Source: a virus
Virus record (IMG/VR): IMGVR_UViG_3300017963_000311
Span: 1 to 55,951 of that record
Reading direction: 5' to 3' (one strand)
DNA length: 55,951 nucleotides
In this document: positions 7,901 to 53,288 of the stretch, one piece after another
How positions within the stretch are numbered: the first letter of the stretch is position 1
Layout of the letters: the number at the start of each line of letters is the position of its first letter
Program-made: the position numbers and the translations under genes
Notes under the pieces: generated by a model
The model's input: only the letters and a program-made list of their open reading frames with translations
Told to the model about the DNA's origin: nothing
Database searches by the model: none

Positions 7901-9083
7901 GGGAACGGCTGATATAAGGGCCACTCCGACGGGTACAATTGACTACGACCCAGATACAGGAAATATCGTTACGAAAACTCTTGTTATTTCTATGGAGAAC
8001 GGACCAGATAAGACTGTTACATTCTCTGCAGAAGTAGATGGGCCAGATAGATTAGCCGCGGAAATAAATAACCAACTTGGAGAGACCATAGCTTATGTAG
8101 AAACGGAGTCAGTTAGCGGAGAGAAGTATCTCAGATTAGAGGCGGACTTCTTTTTCAACGTCAGGTCCGCTGGGACAGCAAATTCGGTATTAGGCCTTTC
8201 GTATTTAAACAACTACGCTCAGGCCAGAGGAAAATATGTCATATCTGATGCCGGGTATGTATCAGGATCAACATCCAATCACATGAGACTGAGTATCAGC
8301 CATCCAATCGATTCAAGTCCTGGCGCATGGACAGGATTCGATTCCACTCAGATTGGACCGTCCCAACATTTTAAAATCTACAGGCCTGGTGTCCAGAGAG
8401 TTAGTTCTACAGAAATGCAGGATAATGTGGACGGGACTCTTTATTACGCGGATATAGAGGTTGTGTCCGAAGGCCCTGGAGATGAATTCAATATCGATGC
8501 CGACCTTCAACTTGATGTAGATGATCATAAATCTGACGGATATACGCTGTATAATACCGACGAGAACATGGCATTTTCAGAATTTGAAGACATTAGGATG
8601 ATTCTTAGCAGAAGATTCCTAACTCCCGGTTCGACGGATTCGCCAGAAAATATGACCCTGATTTCCCAACAAAACATCCAGATCAATTACGAGCGTTCAT
8701 CTTTAGTAGAGCAGATACAGAGTTTCGCGAACTCAGATTTGGACAGAGTTCTGAATGCGAGTATCCTTGTCAGACATCTTGTTCCTCATTTCATACAATT
8801 TGAGCTGAATTATTCTGGCGGGTCCCAATCATCAGTAGTCGAATCAGACATCACGGACTTAATAGATGGGCTGCTTCCGGATGAGATTCTGGAATCCTCC
8901 GCCATCGCAGAATTAGTCAGAAAAAGGGGAGCATCGAGGGTAGAAATGCCTATAGATATGATTGGGGTGGTTCATCAAATTGATAGGAAGATACGGGCGA
9001 TGAGATCTCAGGATTTTATAAGCAGAGGCAGACTTTCTACATTCATCTCTGACAATATCCAGATAACTAGGGAATCGATTTAG
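4953..9083 (+). CDS. Baseplate J-like wedge protein with large insertions
   Basis: This 1376-residue protein belongs to the baseplate J/gp6 type, whose members form the wedge ring around the tail hub. The N-terminus has the typical opening: an acidic helix, 'GEALADLLIKPVEALLDPI', a long helix, then 'VGVVRIWFNSPTAVFVTVGN' and 'EGDEYNVEP', matching the J pattern of a strand pair followed by a G-x-x-[YF]-N-V turn. It is much longer than a usual J (300-600 residues). The middle (about 280-1200) is filled with beta modules: 'GDVLRISG...AGDYNVEQI', and two IN-like modules at about 685-770 and 1010-1085. The last 130 residues ('ASILVRHLVPHFIQFELNY...ITDLIDGLLPDEILE') return to the J C-terminal pattern. 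The SD GGAG precedes the ATG. The stop overlaps the convergent minus-strand gene. Confidence 0.8.
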   Translation: MPGTTDLKEFVEERLLAYDPDIDITDDSPAQITIIDPIVRRFTPDPFEMDIESFIRARLEQEYPGLNADEGEALADLLIKPVEALLDPIIREVQFLRNNKSLSDPEILSPQEADSLMGNIFVRRNRGGLSVGVVRIWFNSPTAVFVTVGNVASTGDGLNFIPSSPQSISAEQMMFNQDGNLFYMDVSFQAEQEGDEYNVEPRTITSISNLPAAVKVRNLYRFRDGTPEESTLAFIDRGENSLTERSLVVPRGVLATLFDQFGELQHIQVVGFNDPEMMRDVLKGGGLGSAIIYGVDGASSDDGDGDGYSDIFESAGGGFIENIGPVGSVSDFVLIIEDKDYPILEVISDTMLKVGASFVLGSDPIEPPPHPDMPDNLSGAQFLIRKSLINLSDIPGGIFKVVTSNGILTVRNDEVHIGGCTDFYIRGTSLEESEQVLEAVTDEQPLMEGLTLDTKVTGLPEDVVRDLSLDSNNNFLTNGVQPGHTLVIETDAGSAGTYHIIKVSPDGAINTLQVDPAPPATVSNQKYKIVDNIDVNLVEPKTVRGSGTDLKTVMGSTQVSTVSEVDFDQLGVEQGDVLRISGESVNAGDYNVEQIVGTGNISLVLGTPLRKTSSSETWQVFKAQEVMNLPTIRITSLELLDSSKQPTGETIPYADPIDIQSYAFSNMGIGEKIQVNDAVIGILSEPIITPSLLDGKALKFTINNGTIITITFSGITTVQDAVDQINAGSSGYNIAAVYETDEGTRLSIRSRNNWIQINPYGSANEVFGFSATVSEDNRQLKSESVSDWTAESLDIEAESDVVYILTGSNIEFWYIHAVEENRLLISRVEDGRAVFPLTDSRASSRIGSRSFGKLRCYFLEPTSFEVRGSYRKAAISDYSPNTIYGSIVRDEPARTEFSLDVFGDESAFYKFFPDPTLQHQVLPATEEQVPDNLLINQIGDKFVESENAPASGIGKDSRSDEIDFLLREILPGDILEITYQPIQGTADIRATPTGTIDYDPDTGNIVTKTLVISMENGPDKTVTFSAEVDGPDRLAAEINNQLGETIAYVETESVSGEKYLRLEADFFFNVRSAGTANSVLGLSYLNNYAQARGKYVISDAGYVSGSTSNHMRLSISHPIDSSPGAWTGFDSTQIGPSQHFKIYRPGVQRVSSTEMQDNVDGTLYYADIEVVSEGPGDEFNIDADLQLDVDDHKSDGYTLYNTDENMAFSEFEDIRMILSRRFLTPGSTDSPENMTLISQQNIQINYERSSLVEQIQSFANSDLDRVLNASILVRHLVPHFIQFELNYSGGSQSSVVESDITDLIDGLLPDEILESSAIAELVRKRGASRVEMPIDMIGVVHQIDRKIRAMRSQDFISRGRLSTFISDNIQITRESI

Positions 9084-9388
9084 TCTTTTTTGAGGATAGG
9101 AATTCTCGGTTCGATAGCCTTACTGATGTTCCCTATCCTAATTGTTATGCCTGTCCTCGGATCGAACTGCTCGCCACAAGCAATACACTCCATATCAAAT
9201 TTTGGAAGTATGCCGTCTTGCTGAAACATTCTGTGGAAGTCGCCTATCTTTTTGCAGGTCCCTCCACATCTGGGACAATTTTGCGATGCATAGAATTTGG
9301 AATCTGCTTCCGCAGCTGGGGTAATGACGTCCTCCGCTCCTTCTAGCAGCTTCTTAGTTTCATCTTCGTCTAGAAATTTCAAATGCAT
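9080..9388 (-). CDS. Zinc-ribbon hypothetical protein
   Basis: This 102-residue protein has a four-cysteine ribbon: 'NCPRCGGTCKK' (CPRC, about residues 39-42) and 'ECIACGEQ' (CIAC, about 68-71), separated by a phenylalanine-rich loop. The N-terminus is an acidic helix. Function is unknown; such ribbons bind nucleic acid or protein. It is the only minus-strand gene inside the rightward structural region. Its stop overlaps the J-like gene stop by four bases, and it diverges from the first fibre gene. No SD is visible before ATG 9388. Confidence 0.7.
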   Translation of the reverse strand: MHLKFLDEDETKKLLEGAEDVITPAAEADSKFYASQNCPRCGGTCKKIGDFHRMFQQDGILPKFDMECIACGEQFDPRTGITIRIGNISKAIEPRIPILKKD

Positions 9389-9485: not shown

Positions 9486-10709
9486 ATGTCGCATGTTTAC
9501 CAAAATGGCTTACTTCTAACGAGCCCGGCTTCTCAGGCAAATGGACGGACCTGGTCCAAATGGTTTTACATGACACTCACTGAGTGTTTAGGTTTAACCG
9601 TTGTCGACAAAGACACTAACGGACGATGGGACTCTACAAAGGGCTCAGGCTCTAGCGGTGCTACAGTCACATCGTATCCAGCCAACTTCGACATAACGGG
9701 AGATGGCTACAATTTCACGACTGCAGATGAAGGTCGATATATTACGATAAGCGGCTTTACTGGCGAATTCTCCAGAAATGCTACTTATAGAATTCTTAAG
9801 TATGTTTCCTCAAAAGTCGTCATTTTGGATATTCTAAGAAGCTGTCACTCAGAAGGGCTCCCCCCAACTTTCACAGGCCTAACTTGGAAACTATGGGCGG
9901 CAGACACGACCGATTGTCCAGATGCCGGCGATTGGTTTGTCTATCCCGGGACCGGTCTCCAAGCTGGTGGCTTTACTTTCCATGTGAAAGTCACAGTCGG
10001 TATTTCTGGAACCTACACCTGCTACTTTCCACAATTTGAAGTCGGTCCCTACGGTGACTGGAATCCAGGGACTGACGCCTGGGGGAGTGCCAGGCATATC
10101 GACTATGGATTCATTAACAAGGACAATTCCATCTATCAAGTCGATGAGTCTTTCGTCATAGCTAGCATGAGTGAAGACTGCCTCACGGTTATGACCAGGA
10201 CCCTGGATAATTACAAATCCTGGCATGTTACTTATATTGGAGAAATAGACGTCGCTGACGACGTAACAGATACACGCCCAGTCGTCATCATTCAAGGTTC
10301 AAATGGCGATGGAGATCTTGATAACATCATCGGCTACGGCCTGGATTCTTCAAATACCGACATCTATAAAGGCGCACGTTGGCTTTCTGCGGATGATGAT
10401 ACACTGACCGTTACGGGCTATCTCTGCACATACCAAGTACGGCCAGAGGCCGATGAGAGCATGGTCAGTGGCCAACACCGCAGTAAGAGCTCTCTGACTG
10501 GCAATAATTATGATGGATTCTTCACCCTCGAATGTAGGGATTGGGCGACGAACGGGGAGCTACGAGGAGTCACTAGAATCTTAGGCATGTCAAATGACGG
10601 AAACATGCGTGGAATACGTATGTTGGAAGGTTCTAGATTGCACGTTTTCGGAGGCCTATCATTGGCCTGGCACAACTCTAATATCTCAGACCCGAGGATA
10701 GCGAGTTAA
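9486..10709 (+). CDS. Fibre cassette protein A
   Basis: This 407-residue beta-rich protein is the first copy of a paralogous pair with the 12028-13320 product. Shared landmarks are the opening 'YQNGL', then '[RK]T[WY]SKW', '[TS]AD[EV]GRYITI', 'GLTW', 'WAAD[TA]TDCP', 'VGPYG[DN]WN' and a C-terminus with tryptophan after a short strand. The 'DxGRYITISGF...N-x-T-[YW]-RIL' segment is a module also found in protein B'. No enzyme motif is seen, so a fibre or receptor-binding subunit is inferred. Arginine codons are 11 CGN to 8 AGR, unlike the AGR-rich core genes. The SD is GAAGAGG. Confidence 0.6.
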   Translation: MSHVYQNGLLLTSPASQANGRTWSKWFYMTLTECLGLTVVDKDTNGRWDSTKGSGSSGATVTSYPANFDITGDGYNFTTADEGRYITISGFTGEFSRNATYRILKYVSSKVVILDILRSCHSEGLPPTFTGLTWKLWAADTTDCPDAGDWFVYPGTGLQAGGFTFHVKVTVGISGTYTCYFPQFEVGPYGDWNPGTDAWGSARHIDYGFINKDNSIYQVDESFVIASMSEDCLTVMTRTLDNYKSWHVTYIGEIDVADDVTDTRPVVIIQGSNGDGDLDNIIGYGLDSSNTDIYKGARWLSADDDTLTVTGYLCTYQVRPEADESMVSGQHRSKSSLTGNNYDGFFTLECRDWATNGELRGVTRILGMSNDGNMRGIRMLEGSRLHVFGGLSLAWHNSNISDPRIAS

Positions 10710-10712
10710 AAG

Positions 10713-12014
10713 ATGGGATATAAATACATTCGCTCACTTCACTTGTTTGATTCTGATACCTGGAGACGAGCACAACAAAAAGCTACCTGCTTGTTTCTAA
10801 GAGATTGTTGCGGATGGACAAATTTTGCGCAAAATATCATCTCTTCCGGTAGTTTTAATAACGTTGCCGGAGATGGTGTAGAGTATGTTGGCACGGATGG
10901 CCGATTTGACGGCACAGATTGGGTTCTAACTGCAGACTCCTCAACTCCGTTTTCTCCGACTGATGTCACGAAGCTTATACTGATTAATGCTCCTGATTCC
11001 TCGGTGACATGCGGCGTATATACGATTAAAGAATACATTTCTTCGTCACAGGTAAAGATTGATTACAGGGCGGACCCAACGAGTGAATTTCCTCCTTCAA
11101 ATCTTGGAGGAACGGCCATCACTTACAAGGTCTGGGCATATAATTATCAATCCCCCGCCTCAAACGGTGATTATTGGAGACTAGAATCTCCAGACGCATC
11201 CAATTGGGCCATTGAATGGCGTTATTATAATGCGGATGAAGCTTGGATTCGTGTGGCAGTGGACGGCAGTTGGGCCGGTAGTAAGATTCTTGGAGGGGAT
11301 AATAATACTGAAAATGACCTTAATTTCGGTATTGACCACGGGGAAGGTCATATCTTTTTTAATGTTATTGCTGAAGACAACGGGGAATTGCTATTGGTGA
11401 CGAATACACACTACAATACGCAGTACAGCAAATATACGTATGATCACGCTTCTGCCTTCATGGTTAATAAGTTTATGCCGCATTCAGGAATTACGTTAGC
11501 TGACGAGGAAAAAATCGCGTTATTCGGGCAAAAGACCAGAAAAAAAGAATGGATGTGGGAGCGTATAAGCGATAATTATCGACTAACGCGTTTTAGGTCG
11601 TGGAGTAATTATCACTCTACCTACCTGACAGGGTATGTCTCTGAAGGTATTAATTATAGAGAGACTAGTGCTATAACCCACAAATCCAATTGGCCTAACT
11701 CATTCAGAGACACAAAATACAGAAGTTATGATTTTGTAGGACCTCTAGCTAATAAAATTGGGGATGTGCTAATAACTGATGATCTGAACAATAATGAGCT
11801 GAAATATCAAAAACTAGGAACAGCCCAACATTATTATGTAACTCCGCCAGTTTTCGTGAATTTTGGCGCGGGTGAGGCGGAGATAAGTACTCAAGCTTGC
11901 TCTGTCCCCCATAAGACACTTTCCAAGACCTCAAGTACATCAAAAGGTGTTTTAACATGCCCCTGCGGCTGGGCTTTTCCATGGCCTGAGGACATATCGT
12001 TTATTCTTTTTTAA
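10713..12014 (+). CDS. Fibre cassette protein B
   Basis: This 433-residue protein is paralogous to the 13330-14943 product. Both have 'WA-x-[EQ]-x-x-Y/N' segments, 'RVAVDGS[WF]AGSKI[LI]G', an 'E-x-KIAL[FM]G' segment and a 'G-x-x-x-YYVTP/FYVSP' segment near the C-terminus. B lacks the second of two internal modules that B' has. The C-terminal 45 residues have three cysteines ('LTCPCGWAFPWPED') and match B' only loosely. Function is inferred as part of the tail fibre: it lies three bases after protein A and is probably co-translated. No catalytic signature is visible. Confidence 0.6.
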   Translation: MGYKYIRSLHLFDSDTWRRAQQKATCLFLRDCCGWTNFAQNIISSGSFNNVAGDGVEYVGTDGRFDGTDWVLTADSSTPFSPTDVTKLILINAPDSSVTCGVYTIKEYISSSQVKIDYRADPTSEFPPSNLGGTAITYKVWAYNYQSPASNGDYWRLESPDASNWAIEWRYYNADEAWIRVAVDGSWAGSKILGGDNNTENDLNFGIDHGEGHIFFNVIAEDNGELLLVTNTHYNTQYSKYTYDHASAFMVNKFMPHSGITLADEEKIALFGQKTRKKEWMWERISDNYRLTRFRSWSNYHSTYLTGYVSEGINYRETSAITHKSNWPNSFRDTKYRSYDFVGPLANKIGDVLITDDLNNNELKYQKLGTAQHYYVTPPVFVNFGAGEAEISTQACSVPHKTLSKTSSTSKGVLTCPCGWAFPWPEDISFILF

Positions 12015-12027
12015 GGAGCTACCGTAT

Positions 12028-13320
12028 ATGGAAATTTACCAAAACGGTCTACCTCTCGTAACTCCAGACGGTGTTGCAGATTCTACCGGGCGCACATACA
12101 GTAAATGGCTATACCAGACTCTTAGAGTTAGTGGATGGACGATTGTTGATTCATCTGGTACGGCTTGGACTTCTTACAAAGGAGTTGGTGTTGCCGGTAA
12201 AACTGTTCTCAATGAACCTTCGCAATTCGACACATCAGTTGACGCCTCTTATGTATTTACTTCTGCTGATGTCGGAAGGTATATAACAATTTATGGATTT
12301 ATAGCTCCGTATACACACATTAACGGTACTTGGAGAATCTTGAAGGTCTTATCGGATTACGTTATAGAGCTTGATATCCTTAGAGGGGTGCATGATTCCG
12401 GTCTTCCTAATAGCCCAATAGTCACTGGTCTGACATGGGAATTTTGGGCAGCAGATGCAACAGATTGTCCAGCTACTAATGATCGGATAGTTGCACGAGG
12501 CGAAGGTATTACTCGCGCTGCGCCGTATAATTTTGATGTCCATATCAGAGTAACGGCTATCGGAAGTGACGCCGGAGCGACCTACAATTCGTGCTTTCCT
12601 GCTTATATTGTAGGCCCGTACGGAAATTGGAATGCTGGAAGCCACGATTGGGATGATTCTCGACACACTAGTGAAAGAGCCTCTGGAGGAAGTGGATTTT
12701 TAAGAGAGGTCGATGAAGCCTTGATTTTTTGTTGTGTGGATACTGACAGTTTTGCTGTAGTTATCAGAGAAGTGAACAGTTACGAAAACACTGCCTGGAA
12801 TTATGTCAACGTAGGAGAATTCACGCCGATATTCCCCGAAGCGTTGGATCCCAAGCCTGTTGCTGTATGGACGGGGAGTAATTATTGGCGAACAGATGGC
12901 GGCAGAGACGCGTCAGCTCTTGGTTATGGTTTGGATACCGGAGGCCAGTTGTACAACGGTGTTCGATACTTAAAATGGCCTGATGAAGTGGATACTGTCA
13001 CCGGTTACGTTTATTTAGATGCTATTAGAGCATATTTTGGCACTTACGGTTATGCAACTCCAGTTATCGGCGGTGCGCACAGACTAAAAGATCCAGTTAG
13101 CGATAGAATCTATTATCAGAAATTAGTTATCGGCACTCTTGAAAATTCCAGTGGCGCTGGAGAGTACAGGGGGTCAATTAAGAAAATGAAATATATTAGT
13201 CACACGTATCATCAGCTCGTACACGGAACTAATTCAGCGGAACTTGCTCTCGGTACCGGTATAACGATGAAATGGCACGGAGCTACTATACACAATACGA
13301 ACATCGACTATCGGGGATAG
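12028..13320 (+). CDS. Fibre cassette protein A' (paralogue of 9486 gene)
   Basis: This 430-residue protein repeats the plan of protein A along its whole length: 'MEIYQNGLPL', 'GRTYSKWLYQTL', 'FTSADVGRYITIYGF', 'TGLTWEFWAADATDCP', 'IVGPYGNWNAG'. It ends in 'GITMKWHGA', similar to the end of A and of B'. The copies are clearly diverged, so the duplication is old or the sequences have been under diversifying pressure. A strong AAGGAG site precedes the ATG. The role is inferred as an alternative or second fibre subunit. Confidence 0.6.
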   Translation: MEIYQNGLPLVTPDGVADSTGRTYSKWLYQTLRVSGWTIVDSSGTAWTSYKGVGVAGKTVLNEPSQFDTSVDASYVFTSADVGRYITIYGFIAPYTHINGTWRILKVLSDYVIELDILRGVHDSGLPNSPIVTGLTWEFWAADATDCPATNDRIVARGEGITRAAPYNFDVHIRVTAIGSDAGATYNSCFPAYIVGPYGNWNAGSHDWDDSRHTSERASGGSGFLREVDEALIFCCVDTDSFAVVIREVNSYENTAWNYVNVGEFTPIFPEALDPKPVAVWTGSNYWRTDGGRDASALGYGLDTGGQLYNGVRYLKWPDEVDTVTGYVYLDAIRAYFGTYGYATPVIGGAHRLKDPVSDRIYYQKLVIGTLENSSGAGEYRGSIKKMKYISHTYHQLVHGTNSAELALGTGITMKWHGATIHNTNIDYRG

Positions 13321-13329
13321 AGGGAGTCA

Positions 13330-14943
13330 ATGACTTACATCAGAGAAGTGAATCCGTCTTCTGCTTTCGAATTTGGACTTAAAGCTCTAGCTCTCCAGCT
13401 TTATTATATCGAGGGTTTTGGCAGTCAGACCGAGGATGTTGATATCTACGGCGTGGGGGATTCTGTAACAGACCCCGACGGCGCAAACAAGCAGACATTA
13501 ACTGATGCCGCCGGGAAATTTGTTGCTGCTGATGTGGGTAGGTCTATAACTGTTTCTGGTATGACTAACCCGAATAACAACAACACCTTCACTATCACTG
13601 ATTATGTCTCTGGTACCCAAATCAAGTACGTGAACGCGGCAGGTGGGGCAGAAACTAGTGCATTTGATTGGGTCATCAGTATCTCTGACGCCAGTTATTT
13701 TTCAACAGAGAAGAACGGTTCTAATGGGGAGATAAATCTTACAGGCTCTGACTTCAATTTTAAGGACGCAACTGCTAGCCTGTTCGTTGTCGGGGATGAA
13801 GGGAAGTGGTTGCTCCTTTGTGATAATGCCACGAGTTCCGGGACAGGGGATTCAGTTTCTGCGCCAGTGGCAGGGGAGCAAACTCTAACAGATGCTGCCG
13901 GTCTTTTTGTCGCATCAGACGATGGACGTCTGATTGCCATTAGCGGTATGACGAATCCGAGAAACAATGGTGTCTTCCTCGTCACGTATATCAGTGCCAC
14001 GCAAGTCAAGTACGTCAATCCTACAGGCGGGGCTGAGACGGCAGACTTTTCGTGGTCTATAAGCTCTAGAATAAGTGGAATTTATAAAATTAGCACCTAC
14101 GTAGATGCAACTACTGTTACTATCGATTTAAGGAGTGGGGCGACTGAATATCCGACACAAAGAGTCTCTCCCGATGACGATATCGTCTGGCATGTTTTGG
14201 CTGAGGATTATCAACTGCCTAATAGAGACACTCAATGGTTCCGACTGACAACCCCGCATGCCTACGGATGGGCCGTAGAGATCCAAAGAAATACGGGCTC
14301 GACATACGTGGGGGCGACAGCCAGGGTGGCTGTAGATGGAAGCTTTGCCGGTTCCAAAATCATAGGCCCGGTTTACTTCGGCGCGAATAGTACGGATGAA
14401 GTCTGGTTTTATGCCAGCATCTCTCCCGAGAAAATAATCTTTCCGTTCCACAACGTCACGGATTCCAATTGGGGTGGTTTCATCGTGTCTCATCTTGAGG
14501 CCCTAGAAAGCTCGGAAAAGGCTAACGAGAGCAAAATAGCTCTCATGGGCGACGCCAATTCTGACTACAACCAGTGGGGCAATAACTGGACGTTTGGGTG
14601 GAGCATCGATGACGTAAATGGCGGCTACACCTGGAATTACGGTCAATCCATGCGATGCTCCGCATGCGATTTGTCTTACCGAAATTCTACCGAGAGCCTT
14701 CGCAGGCAAAGCGGGCGCGGAATGAACAAGAGAACCGGAAAATATGACTTAGTCAGGGCGCTATTCATTCAAGACCGCAACAATGACAGCGGATATTATG
14801 AAAGACTTGGTGCCTTGCTTGGTTTTTATGTAAGTCCAGCTATAGCAGAAAAAACAGCAATTGATAATGTGTGGACTAAAAATAAATTCCATATTACTAG
14901 CGGCCTTGTAATGGATTGGCCTGGATACACTCCGCAGCACTAA
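13330..14943 (+). CDS. Fibre cassette protein B' with internal duplication
   Basis: This 537-residue paralogue of the 10713 gene is about 100 residues longer because it holds two copies of a 75-residue module (residues 43-117 and 173-245). Each copy starts with GDSV and contains 'TLTDAAG-x-FVA', 'SGMTNP', '[IV]KYVN' and 'GGAET'. The C-terminal half matches B ('ARVAVDGSFAGSKIIG', 'ESKIALMGD', 'GFYVSPA'). The SD is GGGAG. It is probably a fibre protein; the repeated module is the same 'D-x-GR-[SY]-I-[TA]-[VI]-SG' unit that occurs singly in A and A'. Confidence 0.6.
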   Translation: MTYIREVNPSSAFEFGLKALALQLYYIEGFGSQTEDVDIYGVGDSVTDPDGANKQTLTDAAGKFVAADVGRSITVSGMTNPNNNNTFTITDYVSGTQIKYVNAAGGAETSAFDWVISISDASYFSTEKNGSNGEINLTGSDFNFKDATASLFVVGDEGKWLLLCDNATSSGTGDSVSAPVAGEQTLTDAAGLFVASDDGRLIAISGMTNPRNNGVFLVTYISATQVKYVNPTGGAETADFSWSISSRISGIYKISTYVDATTVTIDLRSGATEYPTQRVSPDDDIVWHVLAEDYQLPNRDTQWFRLTTPHAYGWAVEIQRNTGSTYVGATARVAVDGSFAGSKIIGPVYFGANSTDEVWFYASISPEKIIFPFHNVTDSNWGGFIVSHLEALESSEKANESKIALMGDANSDYNQWGNNWTFGWSIDDVNGGYTWNYGQSMRCSACDLSYRNSTESLRRQSGRGMNKRTGKYDLVRALFIQDRNNDSGYYERLGALLGFYVSPAIAEKTAIDNVWTKNKFHITSGLVMDWPGYTPQH

Positions 14944-17724: not shown

Positions 17725-19599
17725 ATGGGTTTCGGTACAACATTTGGTTCAACATTAGGCGCTGATGGAGGCGCGGCAGAAGGTTTTACGCCCGAAGAAG
17801 CAACACCTCATATCCCAACATTGACATCGGTAATCGGGCTGAACATGTCGGCCGGAGCTCCAGTCCATGAGGACCTCGGCTGGCAACGCCTTCTGAGTAC
17901 ACCGCTTAATGTAGCCGATACTCTCGAATCGGACGTAGATGAGCGAAGTTTCGCAGACGCCTCCTGGCAGCGGTTGTTATCCACCCCCTTAAATGTTGCC
18001 GACACATTGGAGTCTGATGTAGATGAGCGGTCCTTTAAGGACGCTTCTTGGCAACGGCTTCTTTCGACTTCCCTGAATGTAGCCGACACACTGGAATCTG
18101 ATGAAGAACCATCGCGACCATTTATAGATGGTCTGTCCCCGTGTACCATAGGTTCGGAATTCAGAAACAGCGCTCTGGCTGCAGCAAAAATAAATTCCTC
18201 AGATCTTCTTGAGGTCATTACTCCTGCCCCTGGCGGTTCTGGGAGTGCGGGAGACACTGTCATTATCCCGTGCGGGGACAGGGTCCCGGAATGGTATGGA
18301 ACGAATCCAGAAATTGGGCAATCCCAGCCGGCTAATACTCCTGCTGGTTTGGATGACTTAAAAACTATAATTACCGTGAATAGTGCCGTGATATACAAGA
18401 ATGGGTCGGCGTTGGGAGGATGGACGGTAGATAAACCAGCAAACAATATCAAGGGATTTAATTACGGACTGACAGGTCCTGGAGGAATACTTCCTCTCGG
18501 TTTGGTCACTATCGGCGTCTACTTAGAGGGAGTCAGAAGCGACTATTTCGAATACTCGTTTACGTCCTTGGAGGGGGATCCCCCGTATATAACAAATCAA
18601 GACCCGGCACCGTCAGATACCGGAGTTCCTAGAGATAAGGTCTTGTATCTGGAAGTCGTAGATGACGTATCTGGAGTAGACCTCAGTCAAACCGATTTAT
18701 ACGTAGAGGGAAATCTGGCTTTTGTCGGAGCGACAAGTACCTTCGTTGCTCCATATAATGGGGCCTCGTCTGCAGTAGCTTCTATAGCTAAGGGATACAG
18801 CTTTTACGTACACAAGACGTCGGATTGGGAATCATACAAAGAAATATCTGTAGGAGCGGAGTCTAAGGACGGAAGCGGTAATATCCTGGAATTGGCTGCG
18901 TCGACCTACTATTTCAGGATAGAAGATTACGAGGCCCCTACATTCCACAACGAATCTCCGACTGGTGTCGGTGCTAGCAAAACAACATCTATATTCGTTG
19001 AAATCAGGGAGACATCCGGAATAGGAGTCAATACCGCAGAAATTAACGCCAATGTTAGTGGTATCTCTGCTGTCATAGGCGGCGTGTTTCAGGCTGGTTT
19101 TTCTGGATCCATCGTCCCGAACGCGTTCAACGGGTACAATCTTACGATAGACAAGGATACTGATTACGCCTCATTCGCGAGTATCCCTGTGTCAATATCA
19201 GCTAAGGACCTGAGCGGAAATTTGGGGTCCATAAACTGGACTTTCCAGGTCGAGGACTATCTAGGCCCCCTTATTCTGCCAATAAATCCGATAAATGGGC
19301 AGATTCAAGTAGCTATAACAGAGAATATATCCGTGAATTTAAACGATGAAGATTCTATAGATATGGCTACTGTTGTGATAGAAGTGGATAAAACAGGGAC
19401 AGGGACATCATTTGAGGTGGCGTTTACAGGAGGCTCCTTTACACCGGATTTTGACGGCCCGAGCTCTATGATTGCTCCAGACGGCACCCCAGACGATGTC
19501 TATATCATCATAGATCCGGTGAACCTATTGCCTCCGAATACTCTCATCTATGTTAGGATTACGGCAAGAGACCCAACAGGGAATAACGAGCGCTTGTAA
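17725..19599 (+). CDS. Adhesin with triplicated peptide and Ig-like domains
   Basis: This 624-residue protein has a glycine-rich start and then three consecutive 28-residue units (the third partial) beginning 'WQRLLST' at residues 53, 81 and 109. After that come three Ig-like repeats of about 100-110 residues, each opening with a 'P-x-[ND]-x-x-[PT]-x-x-x-x-x-G' turn and containing 'LYLEVVDD', 'IFVEIRET' or 'ISVNLNDE'. This fits Big-type surface adhesin domains. Its stop overlaps the next start (TAATG), so it is probably translated together with the 1194-residue protein. A virion surface or fibre-connector role is inferred. Confidence 0.6.
   Translation: MGFGTTFGSTLGADGGAAEGFTPEEATPHIPTLTSVIGLNMSAGAPVHEDLGWQRLLSTPLNVADTLESDVDERSFADASWQRLLSTPLNVADTLESDVDERSFKDASWQRLLSTSLNVADTLESDEEPSRPFIDGLSPCTIGSEFRNSALAAAKINSSDLLEVITPAPGGSGSAGDTVIIPCGDRVPEWYGTNPEIGQSQPANTPAGLDDLKTIITVNSAVIYKNGSALGGWTVDKPANNIKGFNYGLTGPGGILPLGLVTIGVYLEGVRSDYFEYSFTSLEGDPPYITNQDPAPSDTGVPRDKVLYLEVVDDVSGVDLSQTDLYVEGNLAFVGATSTFVAPYNGASSAVASIAKGYSFYVHKTSDWESYKEISVGAESKDGSGNILELAASTYYFRIEDYEAPTFHNESPTGVGASKTTSIFVEIRETSGIGVNTAEINANVSGISAVIGGVFQAGFSGSIVPNAFNGYNLTIDKDTDYASFASIPVSISAKDLSGNLGSINWTFQVEDYLGPLILPINPINGQIQVAITENISVNLNDEDSIDMATVVIEVDKTGTGTSFEVAFTGGSFTPDFDGPSSMIAPDGTPDDVYIIIDPVNLLPPNTLIYVRITARDPTGNNERL
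17881..18114 (+). repeat. Three tandem 28-codon repeats, recoded at nucleotide level
   Basis: The units start at 17881, 17965 and 18049. Units 1 and 2 differ at one amino acid of 28 (A to K), yet 20 of the other 27 codons differ synonymously, including two serine positions that switch between AGT and TCC. Unit 3 is partial and differs again. The protein repeat is thus nearly perfect while the DNA repeat is largely erased. Confidence 0.9.
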
Positions 19600-22500
19600 T
19601 GCCAGTAACCTATAGTTTCACTACCGAATCAATAACCGTTCCAACTTCCGACGATTTTCCATGTTTCGACATCACAGAAGGAGGAATGCCTTATTTCAGT
19701 CTCTATTCTGGGGTTGGGGTAAGCCGGGGGGCTCCATGGACGGATGTGGATGGCGACGACTTCGTCATGACCAGCGATGATAGTATAGAAACGATAGTAA
19801 CTATAAGCCTGCCCATAGGACAGAAGTTCACTCTAGAGACTCAATTTAAACCGACCGACCTTCCGCATGATCTAAGCGCTCTCGATAAGGGAAGGTTCTT
19901 TATCGCTGTTTTTGATGCCCAAGATAATGCCGGCGGGGTTCTCCTATCCAAGACCGGATTGGCTATAGTTTCCTCATACGGAAACACCGTCATGCCGATA
20001 TTCGACAGCAATGGAATTGTGGAAGAGGGAGACGATTACTATACCCTAAGAATGGTGGTGGACGGGACCAGCAACGTAATGGATTTATACATTACGAAGA
20101 CCGCGGAGTTGGATGAGACTGGACATCAACTCAGATACACGACAGCAGCCCCAATTACCCCTTCCGGGACCCCAGACCAAGTTCGGATTGAAGTACTAGG
20201 TCATCCGAGCAAGATAACGAAGGTAGCGTTTACTACCATGAGAGTGAACTGCGTTGACCTTCTGATTCCAAATAAACGTCCCATCGCGGATACCGGGCAG
20301 GACCAGACCGCGTCTCTCGGTTCAATTGTTGGATTGGACGGCACAAGAAGTTACGACCCTGAGGGGGAGGAACTGACCTACAAATGGTTTCTGTTTGCAG
20401 CGCCTAGCGGCTCGTCATACAGACAAGATGGAACCGGGGGATTCAGTCAAGATGACGGTGATTCTGACGGATATACGACTATATTCGAGGAGACAGGGAA
20501 TCCATGGAGCGTAGAGAACTCCCCGAGTCTCCAGCCAGGTGACCTTCTAATAGTCGGCGGAAATCAATTCGAAGTAGCTGCTACAAATTGGACATATAAC
20601 TCATCAACCCAATTATATGAAAGAGATGTTGGGTTTGATTCAAATAAGCTGATTCTGGTTAAGGATATTTTGCCTGATGACTTGTCGAGTTCGGCATGGA
20701 CGTTGTATCACCAGACAACTTTCTTCGATGATAGAACGGACCCACAACCAGGATTCGTTCCAGACATCTACGGGATGTACGGGATTCAACTCATCGTAAA
20801 TGACGGTCAACTGGATAGTCTTCCCGACCAGGGTCTAGTGAATGTCGCAGAAACGAACATCGCTTTCGGATATATCCCTGACGTTAATTTCATATGGGAT
20901 TATCTGTCTGACGCCTGGGACATGTATTATGACAGAGGTCCCATAACAACTATATGGTCATCCATAGCTCAGATTGCATCGAACATCCTTTTAACAGCCT
21001 GGCAACTGGATTACGCCAAAAGTCTTGTTGATATCCAAAGACGTTTTCAAAGAAGATGGCTGAACTACGGGACGTTTCTGGAAGAGCCTTCCCTTTACAA
21101 GGATGACGTGGACCTGAAGCTGGTAAGAGGCAGAATTATTAGTGGAGAACTTAGCACCTCCATAGTATTCACTGAACCCGTGGAATTGATTCTAGTAAGG
21201 GATGGGATGACTACATTCACTGTATCTCTATCCGGGACAATGCACGTGTCAGAGATTGTGGATGCCATTAACTCCGCCTTAGGTGAATCATTAGCCACTA
21301 CCAAGACCGCCTCATACGATGAATTTGTTGTGGTAGACATGCCTGTAACGGTATTTATCTATCTGGAATATAGCAAATTGCTGGTCGTGGATAAGAGCGG
21401 TTCGGCGAATTCATACCTCGGATTTAGTACTGAAGAAGACACAGAGAATCGATTCCTGGGATGGAATGGGGAGATAGGCTCGTCCGTTAAAGCTTTGGAC
21501 CTAGATGGATTTCCTGCGCTGATTTTTGATTTCACTGAAGAAGACATTGAGAGGCAGGACCTTCTAATTTTTGAGGACAAGGGATTCGAGATTCAGAAAG
21601 TTGCGGGAGCGACAGAGCTAACTACGCTTCAGGACCTATCCCTTAGCTACAATCCATCTCATGACAGGTCTGAAACATGGGAAATAAGCTCGTTCATCCG
21701 TTCAAAGACAACGAACTTCACTAATGAGCTAGTTAAATTCGGGGATATCGTAACGATAGAAGCGAGGAAGACTGGGGAATTAACCTGGACAGAATTAACC
21801 TGTCTGGTCACAGGTGCTAGAGGAAACACTCTGGGATTTAATCCACGGCCGTTGTATGAACTGGCCGGTGAGGATGATATCTCCGACTATGAGGTGTCGT
21901 TGATTGGAGTCCGTAGGACAAAATCAATCCCAGTGGATGACCTAGTTATCAGCATTCCCAGGCTCCAGGAAATAATACTAGACCCTCCATCATTCCTCTC
22001 TGAAAACAGAGATTATAGAATCTACAAAGAAGATGACATAAACGGGATACATTTCGAGAACGTCTTTAGCTTCGACTCCCCTCCTCCGGATTATCTGTGG
22101 GCGGAGACTACATATTTAGACAATAGGCCTATGATAGAGACTAATTTTGGGAAAGCCGTAGATTTCACAGTAGAGAATCTGGATACGAGAACAGATGATT
22201 TAGATTATCTGTCCGCGGTACAAGGCCTATGGTATGCATTCTTTAACGGCCCCAGCTTGTGGAGAGTCAGAGTAGGAATCCAAATTCTACTAGGACTTCC
22301 GTTTGCAGAAGTTGACGGAATAGTCACTGATATAAATGAGACATACAACGCCGCGACCATAAGAATTCTCATCCAAGATAAATCAGATTCCTCTGTCATC
22401 CGCTCGTACTTCATACCCCGGAGCGTGAATATGGAGGAGGATGGGGAATCCATGATAGAGGTGAATCCTTCTACAGGCGTTGAGTATGTTGTCGGGGATG

Positions 22501-23183
22501 AGGTAGAGCAATTTTCCCCCTTATCAAAAGGTGTGGAGGTCGCTGATTGGATAAAAAGCGAGGATTGGTGGTCTAGATATCATGGGCAGGGAGTCCTTCG
22601 TGAGCTAGATAAGTTCTTTCATCATCTGGCTATTGCAGATGTCGACGTGTTCAATATCGCCAATCTGGTGTTCGCTATAGATTTTCTGAAAACCATAAAA
22701 CCTCACTACACGTTCCCGTTTTGGGTAATATTCAAAAGACTCTCCCCAGATACGATAAGTACGACAGATTATTTGCAGATGCACGGAACAAAGTATCTGT
22801 TCGACCATCCTGCGTGCGCCAAACAGATAACCGACCAGGGAGTTGGGGGAGCTTACCGGTTCGATGATGTCGATGGAGTTGGGGTCGTTAACTGGGCTTA
22901 TGACGGTGACCCATTGGGCGGGAGTACCAAGCCGATGTTTCTCTATGACAGGAAGCGGTTATGCCCTGACGAGGAAATCCATGTCATCATGATTGGATAT
23001 TTCTCTGGAGGAATTTTCCCGTTTGATTGGATTTGGGCGTTCGATGATGGAGGCGGGGAGGATATAATCCCGCTATCCGGCCCGGTGGCAACTTATCCTC
23101 CTCCATACGGTCCGGTTGTCGGAGCAATCAAATTTGATACATCGTATGGTGCAGGCTGGTATACTCGTGGTAAGAAATTGTAG
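19599..23183 (+). CDS. Large tail protein with lectin-like, PKD-like and helical parts
   Basis: This is a 1194-residue protein. Residues about 20-220 look like a jelly-roll lectin or LamG fold. A PKD-type domain follows: 'RPIADTGQDQTASLGS', 'LDGTRSYDPEGEELTYKW'. It is interrupted by an inserted 'GDSDGYTTIFEE...LQPGDLLIVGG' module similar to one in the J-like protein, and closed by 'GIQLIVNDG'. Residues about 430-500 form an amphipathic helical region ('IWDYLSDAWDMYY', 'VDIQRRFQRRWLNYG'), and an IN-like module lies near 525-615. The mixture of baseplate-type modules and adhesin domains suggests a fibre-to-baseplate connector. No close family is recognised. Confidence 0.6.
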   Translation: MPVTYSFTTESITVPTSDDFPCFDITEGGMPYFSLYSGVGVSRGAPWTDVDGDDFVMTSDDSIETIVTISLPIGQKFTLETQFKPTDLPHDLSALDKGRFFIAVFDAQDNAGGVLLSKTGLAIVSSYGNTVMPIFDSNGIVEEGDDYYTLRMVVDGTSNVMDLYITKTAELDETGHQLRYTTAAPITPSGTPDQVRIEVLGHPSKITKVAFTTMRVNCVDLLIPNKRPIADTGQDQTASLGSIVGLDGTRSYDPEGEELTYKWFLFAAPSGSSYRQDGTGGFSQDDGDSDGYTTIFEETGNPWSVENSPSLQPGDLLIVGGNQFEVAATNWTYNSSTQLYERDVGFDSNKLILVKDILPDDLSSSAWTLYHQTTFFDDRTDPQPGFVPDIYGMYGIQLIVNDGQLDSLPDQGLVNVAETNIAFGYIPDVNFIWDYLSDAWDMYYDRGPITTIWSSIAQIASNILLTAWQLDYAKSLVDIQRRFQRRWLNYGTFLEEPSLYKDDVDLKLVRGRIISGELSTSIVFTEPVELILVRDGMTTFTVSLSGTMHVSEIVDAINSALGESLATTKTASYDEFVVVDMPVTVFIYLEYSKLLVVDKSGSANSYLGFSTEEDTENRFLGWNGEIGSSVKALDLDGFPALIFDFTEEDIERQDLLIFEDKGFEIQKVAGATELTTLQDLSLSYNPSHDRSETWEISSFIRSKTTNFTNELVKFGDIVTIEARKTGELTWTELTCLVTGARGNTLGFNPRPLYELAGEDDISDYEVSLIGVRRTKSIPVDDLVISIPRLQEIILDPPSFLSENRDYRIYKEDDINGIHFENVFSFDSPPPDYLWAETTYLDNRPMIETNFGKAVDFTVENLDTRTDDLDYLSAVQGLWYAFFNGPSLWRVRVGIQILLGLPFAEVDGIVTDINETYNAATIRILIQDKSDSSVIRSYFIPRSVNMEEDGESMIEVNPSTGVEYVVGDEVEQFSPLSKGVEVADWIKSEDWWSRYHGQGVLRELDKFFHHLAIADVDVFNIANLVFAIDFLKTIKPHYTFPFWVIFKRLSPDTISTTDYLQMHGTKYLFDHPACAKQITDQGVGGAYRFDDVDGVGVVNWAYDGDPLGGSTKPMFLYDRKRLCPDEEIHVIMIGYFSGGIFPFDWIWAFDDGGGEDIIPLSGPVATYPPPYGPVVGAIKFDTSYGAGWYTRGKKL

Positions 23184-29200: not shown

Positions 29201-29508
29201 ACGGTTTCAAGAAAACAATCGAGAGACTTGGACTAGTAGAAAAAGGGGTAATCGATGAACTCAAATTGGGGGGCGAGGAGCTTCTAGATTATCTCGTCCA
29301 AAAGAAGATACTTGATAGTGAGTATCTTCCAATTATCAAGGAAGTGGCCGAGGATGTAGGAAGCGAGAACCAGCTTCAAGTTCTTAGGGGGGAACAGAAG
29401 ATACTGAAGGTTCAGTGCTCTCACGTGATCAAGAAATCGGCGAAGATAATTGCTAGGATGAGAGATGCTCCTATCCCCAAGAAACATGATCTAGTGGCAG
29501 TAAAATGA
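29197..29508 (+). CDS. Small basic helical hypothetical protein
   Basis: This 103-residue protein is all-helical, with leucine-rich amphipathic stretches ('VIDELKLGGEELLDYLVQKKIL', given here as a pattern of about residues 18-38) and a basic C-terminal half. No family was recognised. It overlaps the genes on both sides by four bases (ATGA), so it is co-translated with the BhlA-like protein and the pyrophosphatase-domain protein. GAGG precedes the start. Confidence 0.55.
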   Translation: MNGFKKTIERLGLVEKGVIDELKLGGEELLDYLVQKKILDSEYLPIIKEVAEDVGSENQLQVLRGEQKILKVQCSHVIKKSAKIIARMRDAPIPKKHDLVAVK

Positions 29509-30905
29509 ACTCATCATTCTTCGACGAATTAACAAAGATAGCAGAAGAGCATAAACTACAAGGACATACTAATTTCCAGGGTATTCCGATTGCCGTAGAG
29601 AATAGGAAAGGGTCTGTTAGGAAAGGAACAGATTCTGACGGGAATGAGTGGCGAACGGAGATGAAGTACCCGTACGGGTATGTGAAGGGGACGAAGGGGG
29701 CTGATGGGGAAGAAATCGATGTCTATGTCGGTCCTAATAAAGAATCCCCTAATGCTTTCGTAGTCCATCAAAAGGACAAGGATACCGGGAAGTATGACGA
29801 GGATAAATGCTTTCTTGGGTTCGATTCCAAGAAAGATACTAGAGAGGCTTTCCTGAAACACTACGACAGCCCGAAATTTTTGGGGCCTATATCCAAGGTT
29901 CCGATAGAGAAGCTAAAAGAAAAAATAAGAGAAGGTAAGCAGCTGACGAAAATCAGTTCTTGTGTGGAATTTGAGAAAAATGCTGTCGACCCCCTCACGT
30001 TGGCCGGATTAGGGGCCTTGTCCCATGTAGGCGCGAACCTGGCCGTGAAAGCGGGACACGGAACAAAATTTCTTAGGAATGTGAGAAGCGGAGGTCTAGC
30101 CAGAGGAATCCGTTCTGGAATAGAAGGAAAGCCGCAGGGAATCGGAAGCAGGATGCTGGAAACGTGGGCCGGTCCGGAATTGGTGGCCACAGAGCATGCT
30201 GGAAGAGGTATCGGAAAGATATTAAGAGGGAGAACTCCTCATCAGCAAAAAAGAGCACTAAAGAAATTACGAAAAGCCGTGGCTATGAACCCAAACTTAA
30301 AACATACCCCGATAATGGAGGACGTAGTAGGAGGAGTAACTAAGGCAATAGAGGGAGGATTACCGAAAGCTGGACCGGTTAGAGAAGCTGGAAGGCTTGC
30401 AAGAGCTGCCGCATTCGCTCCAGCACCTATTCTGGCCGCGACCGAACCCTCGGCCTTAGTTCATATGGGAATTAATGTGGCCAGAAAGGGTGTAGCTCAA
30501 AGCAAAGCAGGCAAAGAGTTCATGAGAAAGGGTATGAAACGTGGTCTAGTAGAAGGGGGAGCAGATGCTGCTCCTTCTGTTAGGGAGAGGATAATGGATG
30601 TCCTAGTTTCTCCAGCCGCCTTGCACACAGAACGTATGGGCAGAGCCATGGCGGACCTTCCTGCAACAGCTAGTAAAGAGCAGTTAGCTAGATTAACCGG
30701 AGCTAGCCATAGTTTGATGGGTCAAAAAAGATTGAGAGGTGCTATCAAGAGGGCACCTAAGGCAGCCGAAGAAAAAATTAAAGGCGAGGCAAGACAGATT
30801 AGAGGCGATATCCAGGAAATGGCCCGTCCGGCTCCAAGGAAGGCTTCTCCAGCACCTTCTGTCGGTGCTACAGATTACGGCATACCATTGGGAGTAAGAT
30901 GGTGA
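29505..30905 (+). CDS. Polyvalent-type protein: FFDELxKIA tag, pyrophosphatase-like domain, basic tail
   Basis: This is a 466-residue protein. Residues 4-13 carry the tag 'SFFDELTKIA'. Residues about 18-145 resemble the inorganic-pyrophosphatase-like domain found in phage polyvalent proteins: 'YGYVKGTKGADGEEIDVYVG', 'AFVVHQKD', 'KCFLGF', 'AFLKHY'. A second tag-like peptide (FEKNA, 156-160) begins a long Ala/Gly/Arg-rich part (160-466) with amphipathic basic helices. Polyvalent proteins are thought to enter the host with phage DNA; that role is inferred here. Whether the enzyme is active cannot be judged. Its start overlaps the preceding stop, and no strong SD is seen. Confidence 0.65.
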   Translation: MNSSFFDELTKIAEEHKLQGHTNFQGIPIAVENRKGSVRKGTDSDGNEWRTEMKYPYGYVKGTKGADGEEIDVYVGPNKESPNAFVVHQKDKDTGKYDEDKCFLGFDSKKDTREAFLKHYDSPKFLGPISKVPIEKLKEKIREGKQLTKISSCVEFEKNAVDPLTLAGLGALSHVGANLAVKAGHGTKFLRNVRSGGLARGIRSGIEGKPQGIGSRMLETWAGPELVATEHAGRGIGKILRGRTPHQQKRALKKLRKAVAMNPNLKHTPIMEDVVGGVTKAIEGGLPKAGPVREAGRLARAAAFAPAPILAATEPSALVHMGINVARKGVAQSKAGKEFMRKGMKRGLVEGGADAAPSVRERIMDVLVSPAALHTERMGRAMADLPATASKEQLARLTGASHSLMGQKRLRGAIKRAPKAAEEKIKGEARQIRGDIQEMARPAPRKASPAPSVGATDYGIPLGVRW

Positions 30906-31524: not shown

Positions 31525-31682
31525 CATTTAATCACTGCATCATTTAGAAGACGGGTTCTTAACTTGGATATTGAATCTAGATTTTTGGTAGATATCCCTA
31601 TCTTATTAGCCAATTTGATGAGCTGTTTCTCAGATAGGGAATAGAATTCGTCTTCGCCTAGTTCGACGAAACTAGGCTCCAC
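31524..31682 (-). CDS. Small SAP-like protein, last gene of the replication block
   Basis: This 52-residue frame has a GTG start that overlaps the stop of the preceding gene (TAGTG). The preceding gene's end supplies a GAGG-type site. The product, with 'LSEKQLIKLANKIGIS' and 'LDSISKLRTRLL', folds in pattern like a SAP/HeH helix-extension-helix, similar to the first 45 residues of its upstream neighbour. It may bind DNA. It ends at the edge of the rightward terminator. It is called from overlap, composition and similarity to the neighbour. Confidence 0.6.
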   Translation of the reverse strand: MEPSFVELGEDEFYSLSEKQLIKLANKIGISTKNLDSISKLRTRLLNDAVIK

Positions 31683-32377
31683 TACTTTCCCTCTTCCTCC
31701 TCCTCTTCGAGCTTCTCATTTATTTCTTTGTCCAAATCACTGAATCCGAGATCGTCTGGAGCGTTATCGATGGTCAGAACCTCATCGTTTTCGAGCCACG
31801 AGCCGAGATGGAAAATCATTTCTCTGGCTGCCCATGCATTATCGGCGGATTCTTTCAGAGCCTTAGTTACCTCTTTTCCTCTCGCATCTGCTGCATCGGA
31901 AAGCCCGTCTACGATTTCTCCGATGTCATCGATCTTCTTTTCTTGTCTTGTCAATCGCTCATCAATTTTCTGAAGAATTTGCACCAAATCAGACTGCTGG
32001 CTTGGGGATGAGGCTTTAGAAGACTTTTTGGATCTCTTTTCTTGTCCCTTCTCCTCTTCCTCCTCGTCCTTTGATTCTTCCTCGTCTTTCGCTTCTTCTT
32101 CATCCACTTTTCGTCCGCGTCCCCGTTTTAGCCTGGACCCGCCACTCTTCTCCTTTTTCAGCTTACTCCCTTTCCCCTTCTTCTCCTTCTTTTCCTTCTT
32201 GTCTGATTTTTCGTCTTCTTCCGCAGCCCCTCCGTCTTGGTTTTCGAAGAGCCAATCCTTAAGCTCATCAACTCCCATCTCGTTGGCTTTCTTGGCGCTG
32301 AGACCTAGCTTCTTGACCAAACGCCGGGCTTCAATCCCTGTCATATCATCGATTTCTTCTCGGCTATACTTTGACAT
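31682..32377 (-). CDS. SAP-like domain protein with Lys/Glu-rich linker
   Basis: This 231-residue protein has a SAP/HeH-like N-terminus: 'MTGIEARRLVKKLGLS', 'MGVDELKDWLFE' (about 12-48). A very charged linker follows (about 50-125, runs of E, K, D and S), then a helical domain (about 130-231) with 'LVQILQKIDERLTRQEKKID' and an acidic end. SAP domains bind DNA, so a DNA-organising or replication-associated role is inferred. A strong AAAGGAGG lies before ATG 32377. Low-complexity composition gives a long serine-rich shadow frame on the other strand, which is not a gene. Confidence 0.65.
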   Translation of the reverse strand: MSKYSREEIDDMTGIEARRLVKKLGLSAKKANEMGVDELKDWLFENQDGGAAEEDEKSDKKEKKEKKGKGSKLKKEKSGGSRLKRGRGRKVDEEEAKDEEESKDEEEEEKGQEKRSKKSSKASSPSQQSDLVQILQKIDERLTRQEKKIDDIGEIVDGLSDAADARGKEVTKALKESADNAWAAREMIFHLGSWLENDEVLTIDNAPDDLGFSDLDKEINEKLEEEEEEGK

Positions 32378-51395: not shown

Positions 51396-53288
51396 ATGTC
51401 ATTATTGGGTGAATCGTACAGCAGGTCTCCGGTAAGAGGGCGAGTTACTGGTTCAGTAAGAGGGGTCGCTTACCCAAGTCCGTTCTTTGATATAGGCCAA
51501 ACCTATATGCCGTCGTCCATCAAAGAGATGTTTAGATGGTGCAGGCATTATTTTCTTACGCATCCAATTATAAATACAATCGCTTTCAAATTAAGCCAAT
51601 ATATAATAACTGATATAGTGTATATGACGGAAAATCTGAAACTCAAGGGGATGTGGTCCGAGTTTTTAGAAGAAAAGCTCAGATACAGAATATTCCAACT
51701 TGAGTCGGGTTTAGACTACAACGTATACGGAAATTGTATTGTCAGTATATTTTTTCCGTTCATTAAAATGCTGAGATGTAAGAAATGTAACTTCACTTCC
51801 GAGGCAAAGAGTTCCAAATATTACTTCAAAAATTTTGAATTCATGTGGAAGTGTCCGTCATGCGGATTCCACGGCCCAGCTTCAGCTAGTGATTATCATA
51901 TTAGGAAGGCCGACGGGATCAGACTCATTAGATGGAACCCAGAAAACATAGATATTACGTACAATGAAATAAATGGCTCTACTACGTACTTCTATAGAAT
52001 GCCGCTACAGACAAAAAACGACATTATTATGGGAAAGAAGAGCGTGGTGGAGGAAGTACCACAGCTTTACATTGAGTCCTTAAAAAGAAAAAAGGCTATC
52101 GTCTTTTCAAACGACAATCTCTTTCACTTCAAACGAGGAACCCTGGCCGGGAAGGATAGAGGATGGGGTACTCCAGCTCCATTACCAGTTCTGAAAGATG
52201 TCTACTATCTCCAAATACTAAAAAAGAGTCAGGAGTCAATCGCCTTAGAGCATATAGTTCCTCTTCGCACGATATTCCCTCAGGCAAGTTCAGGGCTCGC
52301 GGACCCATTCAAAAACGTGAATCTTGTTGATTGGAGAGACCAGATTCATGACGAGGTGAATCGTTGGAGATTTGATAACAACTACATGCCGATTCTCAGC
52401 TTCCCCATAGGGACCCAAAGTATAGGAGGGGACGGGAGAGCTCTCCTTCTCGGACAAGAAATAAGAGTTTGGCTGGAACAAATAGCTATAGGAATGGGAG
52501 TGCCGACAGAGCTGATATTTGGCGGTCTATCTTATTCCGGCAGCAATGTATCTCTTAGGATGTTAGAGAATAGCTTTATCACCAACATCCTAGAGCACGT
52601 GAGCATGCTCAACTGGTGCATCAGAAGAATCGGGACGTATATGAATTGGGAAATAGTTCAAGCTCGATTCAAACCATTTAAAATGGCTGACGACCTACAA
52701 AGAAAAGCATATAACTTGCAGCTTAATCAACTCGGAAAGATATCATCTACTACCTTAATTGAGGACGCTGATTTTGATGCAGCTAGGGAGAATGAGCTAA
52801 TAGAAACAGAAACGAATGCAATGGCTGAAGCTCAAAAGAAATCCAGGCTGGCTCAAGCCAACATCGAAGGTGAAAGCCAGATGATAATGATGAGATGGCA
52901 GTCAAAAGCCCAGGTCGAACAACAACAAATGATGTCACAGCAGGCTCCTGCTCCTGGAGAGCCCGGCGCAGAAGCAGAAGGAGTAACTCAAGAAGGAGGA
53001 CAGATACCACAAGAAATGCAATCACCGTTGAACGCCGGTCAACAGCAGGCTGGAGGGAGTGCGAACTTTGACTTACTCTCCGAGGCCCAAAACATCGCTT
53101 CCCAGTTAATTCAATTGGACGAGAATTCACAGACAGCCGCTCTTCAGAATATTTCTTCCCAAAGCCCTGAGTTTGGGCAGGTAGTAGAAAGTATGCTCGT
53201 TTCGATGAAACAAGAGACCTCGCCACAGGGTGCTCCGCTACCGGAACAGAAACCACCGCGGCGAGGTCCTGGATCCTCCTTAATCTAA
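51396..53288 (+). CDS. Portal protein with zinc-ribbon insertion
   Basis: This 630-residue protein has the portal plan. N-terminal helices ('MFRWCRHYFLTHPIINTIAF') are followed by 'YNVYGNCIVSIFFPF', 'IRLIRWNPENIDI', a clip/stem region with 'IVPLRTIFPQ', 'PILSFPIGTQSIGGDGRALL', then 'GMGVPTELIFGGLSYSGSNVSLRMLENSF', here split around residues 368-398, the conserved late helix. A four-cysteine ribbon (C128, C131, C153, C156) is inserted after the early strands. The C-terminal 150 residues are Gln-rich and disordered. It forms the dodecameric head gate for DNA. GGAG precedes the start, and its stop overlaps the convergent gene by nine bases. Confidence 0.85.
   Translation: MSLLGESYSRSPVRGRVTGSVRGVAYPSPFFDIGQTYMPSSIKEMFRWCRHYFLTHPIINTIAFKLSQYIITDIVYMTENLKLKGMWSEFLEEKLRYRIFQLESGLDYNVYGNCIVSIFFPFIKMLRCKKCNFTSEAKSSKYYFKNFEFMWKCPSCGFHGPASASDYHIRKADGIRLIRWNPENIDITYNEINGSTTYFYRMPLQTKNDIIMGKKSVVEEVPQLYIESLKRKKAIVFSNDNLFHFKRGTLAGKDRGWGTPAPLPVLKDVYYLQILKKSQESIALEHIVPLRTIFPQASSGLADPFKNVNLVDWRDQIHDEVNRWRFDNNYMPILSFPIGTQSIGGDGRALLLGQEIRVWLEQIAIGMGVPTELIFGGLSYSGSNVSLRMLENSFITNILEHVSMLNWCIRRIGTYMNWEIVQARFKPFKMADDLQRKAYNLQLNQLGKISSTTLIEDADFDAARENELIETETNAMAEAQKKSRLAQANIEGESQMIMMRWQSKAQVEQQQMMSQQAPAPGEPGAEAEGVTQEGGQIPQEMQSPLNAGQQQAGGSANFDLLSEAQNIASQLIQLDENSQTAALQNISSQSPEFGQVVESMLVSMKQETSPQGAPLPEQKPPRRGPGSSLI

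Follow-up and report, generated by a model that had tools for sequence, protein, structure and literature searches.

How can tandem copies of a peptide agree at almost every residue and yet be encoded by mostly different codons? The question is raised by a short array in a viral sequence of 55,951 nucleotides, here called the window, which spans IMG/VR record IMGVR_UViG_3300017963_000311. The array lies near the N-terminus of the product of a 624-codon gene (17725–19599, plus strand), in which the repeats are followed by Ig-like domains; orthologues of this gene are present in the related loci L017, L020, L014 and L015. Unit 1 (WQRLLSTPLNVADTLESDVDERSFADAS, 17881–17964, plus strand) and unit 2 (WQRLLSTPLNVADTLESDVDERSFKDAS, 17965–18048, plus strand) are complete, while unit 3 (WQRLLSTSLNVADTLESDEEPS, 18049–18114, plus strand) is partial: its first 18 residues match units 1 and 2 at 17 positions, after which it diverges. 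The units are in Trp register and all in frame, the array measuring 252 bp without a frameshift. As the initial annotation had stated, and as the sequence confirms, units 1 and 2 have 27 of 28 residues in common, and 20 of the 27 codons for those residues differ, leaving seven the same; the differences include two AGT/TCC serine switches. The four comparable leucine codons are of the CTN type in units 1 and 3 and of the TTR type in unit 2.

As a protein repeat the array is far beyond chance. It has the highest tandem score of all open reading frames scanned in the window and in the related loci, and the near-identity of its units (27/28 and 17/18 residues) is that of a conserved-peptide tandem repeat. 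At the DNA level the units are only 57–63% identical, and the array is absent from the output of Tandem Repeats Finder. An antisense reading frame overlaps the array (17808–18452, minus strand) and was considered as the conserved frame, but there the units agree at 20 of 25 residues, whereas the sense frame gives 24 of 25. No further copies of the array were found in the window's own record, and when the window's proteins were searched against one another with BLAST, no other protein matched it.

The number of codons that two such units should share by chance can be calculated from a null model in which codons are drawn independently, given the residues of the units and the codon usage of the phage. 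For units 1 and 2 the seven identical codons compare with 9.4–9.7 expected (P = 0.17–0.20), whereas the other two pairs lie slightly above the 6.0 expected for each, with seven (units 1 and 3) and eight (units 2 and 3). Units 1 and 2 differ at 28 nucleotides, slightly more than the 22.2 expected (P = 0.055). The longest exact in-register matches are 11 bp (units 1 and 2), 9 bp (units 2 and 3) and 11 bp (units 1 and 3), where 9.5, 8.8 and 8.4 bp are expected. Codon identity thus matches independent draws, and the units are therefore at synonymous saturation, with no excess of differences demonstrated; as ‘recoding’, the array is not beyond chance. A synonymous–nonsynonymous comparison, which the initial annotation had proposed, agrees with this: NG86 pS is at least 0.73 for every unit pair, and synonymous divergence equals that expected of random codons. 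The accompanying NG86 dN is inflated by multi-step serine and leucine paths, the residue-level change between units 1 and 2 being 1/28.

An independent yardstick is provided by proteins that contain no such repeat. Two were used, namely the 1194-residue product of the downstream neighbour (19599–23183, plus strand), which is conserved in the clade and also served to locate the orthologous loci, and the portal protein (51396–53288); both were compared with those of IMG/VR relatives at 38–64% residue identity. At identical residues, codon identity between these orthologues is 0.31–0.42, and switches of codon box affect 16–56% of serines, 29–50% of leucines and 45–79% of arginines. Orthologous blocks with at least 27 of 28 identical residues have only 9–12 codons in common, so a perfectly kept stretch of 28 residues with most of its codons changed is ordinary at this distance. 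The earlier argument that under simple drift the protein, too, should have changed leaves purifying selection out of account. The orthologue blocks look the same without any repeat. Two-base serine switches, for their part, have been described before in the evolution of serine codons (PMC6872785).

The array is therefore best read as an old tandem array under strong purifying selection whose synonymous sites have become saturated, and which perhaps supplies a docking or spacer peptide that came from an exchanged module; we give this reading a probability of about 0.7. According to it, a short functional peptide of 28 residues would have been kept as two full copies and one partial copy in the N-terminal part of a tail protein that has Ig domains. 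Purifying selection would hold each copy nearly unchanged while ordinary mutation randomises the synonymous sites. The part of the original proposal according to which selection keeps the peptide is borne out by a single residue change in 28 at the synonymous divergence given above. We infer purifying selection, as the sole cause, from the units themselves, because a second phage with the peptide was not found in the collections searched. Prolonged selection acting only on the protein would yield such an array, and special selection against DNA repeats is not needed.

The gene sits in a run of fibre-like genes, a position that suits a tail or baseplate protein, and its product is probably a tail or baseplate-associated fibre protein. 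An AlphaFold model of the 624-residue protein, made with five sequences, places Ig-like β-sandwich domains in the C-terminal half, as in Ig-like domain tail proteins, and is confident across much of residues 300–620. Among the top PDB matches to this half, which include other Ig-like structures, the best are the BIg domains of SiiE, a bacterial Ig-like adhesin; the likeness has a low TM-score and 12–13% identity, and covers the Ig-like domains but not the repeats. The repeat region is modelled with low confidence both within the full-length protein (pLDDT ~25) and alone (~50), the latter model suggesting weak helices over SWQRLL and NVADTLES. The likeliest role of the units would be that of a multivalent docking or spacer element, tethering the Ig-domain arm to a different component of the tail.

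Several features of the surrounding genes may be recorded here. The run of fibre-like genes contains paralogous pairs in alternating order, 9486–10709 with 12028–13320 (35% identical) and 10713–12014 with 13330–14943 (26% identical). Next to it lies a small gene (9080–9388, minus strand) whose two CxxC pairs resemble a zinc ribbon and whose neighbours are on the other strand; its position between a structural gene of ~1380 residues and the fibre genes is kept in L017 (4886–5200, minus strand). Elsewhere in the window, a 466-residue protein (29505–30905) has an N-terminal inorganic pyrophosphatase domain (PF18823), and an 18-bp minisatellite of 2.3 copies (32057–32098) is found within a Lys/Glu-rich gene (31682–32377, minus strand).

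Related phages carry short repeats of the same kind, but with other peptides. The orthologue in L016 and L017 (contigs of 43 and 149 kb) starts with 23-residue repeats of a different sequence, and L020 and L028 have repeats of 34–35 residues in upstream genes. These tail-region repeats (L017 8073; L020 4043 and 6342; L028 6360) resemble the window's array in being present in two or three copies of 23–35 residues, in their location in the orthologous gene or its upstream neighbours and in their saturated codons; they differ in peptide and in their lower residue identity (10–17 identical of 23–25 compared). Identical codons number 5/14, 7/15, 4/10 and 6/17, all four at saturation, and pooling six unit pairs from four phages gives 37 against 40.3 expected (P = 0.27). 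The homologues to which the initial annotation had pointed thus show the same codon saturation in their repeats, but none of these repeats is the window's peptide. L014 and L015 have short N-termini without the array, and distant orthologues carry a different N-terminal sequence in its place. A common Trp motif in the N-terminal units of the relatives was considered and is too degenerate to be claimed. No relative of the repeat, as peptide or protein, was found among phages, plasmids, IMG/VR, GTDB genomes or PDB sequences, in collections that may leave out near-identical records.

Since its synonymous sites are saturated, the array appears to be old; its units have been separate for about as long as phages that are 60% identical in their structural proteins. 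It is puzzling, then, that those relatives do not have the peptide. Exchange of the fibre module is the likely explanation: the array would have arrived with an exchanged module, and relatives would carry other short repeats because of such exchange. Codon usage points the same way, and the segment 9486–19599 is probably an exchanged module. In its genes the proportion of arginine codons of the CGN type is 0.35–0.54, against mostly 0.0–0.3 in the window's other genes. Within the 624-codon gene all six arginine codons of the array are CGN, compared with one of nine elsewhere (P = 0.0014, for a contrast chosen after seeing the data). Codon choice has thus not been fully randomised, all six having remained in the CGN box, a point against our preferred reading, as is the lean of units 1 and 2 towards more nucleotide differences.

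Exchange of the fibre module would account for the arginine contrast, and so could a different origin of the units, whereby recombination between diverged homologous genes of different phage lineages joined near-identical units that were already saturated. The deviant arginine usage of the module, the difference between the array and the rest of its gene, and the other peptides found at the same place in relatives all suit such an origin. We nevertheless regard it as unlikely: scans of phages, plasmids, IMG/VR and GTDB revealed no donor, and the CGN preference is common to all units, whose pairwise divergences are about equal, so that the same data fit an old duplication.

It had also been proposed that selection removed DNA identity, identical units being lost by repeat-mediated deletion and the survivors being those with the fastest synonymous change. 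The slight surplus of nucleotide differences between units 1 and 2 would agree with this, as would the switch of box in two serine codons and in all four comparable leucine codons, the latter at about P = 0.04 by itself and picked after the fact. Identical codons are, however, not depleted between units 1 and 2 (P = 0.18), the other two pairs lean the opposite way, exact matches are as long as or longer than in random encodings, and conserved orthologous blocks look alike with no repeat to be lost. The genes of the phage likewise show no avoidance of direct repeats. When synonymous codons were shuffled within each gene and exact 8- to 12-mers counted within 300–2000 bp, short direct repeats were not depleted, the observed numbers being at or above those of the shuffles, with shorter repeats somewhat in excess. 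Selection of this kind is accordingly improbable. About as improbable is active diversification of the array's synonymous codons against recombinational collapse with a trace now masked. Past selection against DNA identity would no longer be visible after the synonymous sites had become saturated. That a metagenome assembly joined units of different strains is very improbable. The metagenomic origin of this virus record would agree with it, as would the failure to find the array in a second, independent record, but the 252 bp are in frame throughout, and related phages carry comparable repeats in the same protein and module.

The array illustrates that ‘recoding’ of tandem peptide repeats, however striking, can equal exactly what saturation predicts. 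Codon identity set against independent draws, together with an orthologue-block yardstick, offers a simple test to tell saturation from active recoding. The array also draws attention to peptide repeats that are short, lineage-specific and under strong constraint, carried in the fibre module of a little-known clade of large phages. A literature search for cases in which the codons of protein repeats diversify to resist recombination found nothing. The classic analogue is polyubiquitin, which likewise consists of head-to-tail repeats whose peptide is (nearly) identical while their synonymous differences are many. A passage in PMC10457151, citing Nei et al. 2000 and Sharp and Li 1987, puts this pattern down to purifying selection where homogenisation is slow or absent, within a debate between purifying selection with birth-and-death and slow concerted evolution. 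Polyubiquitin units are 76 residues long, cleaved, eukaryotic and often partly homogenised, whereas those of the phage have 28 residues, belong to a structural protein and are fully saturated. By this analogy, the array appears to be a product of the same kind of evolution.
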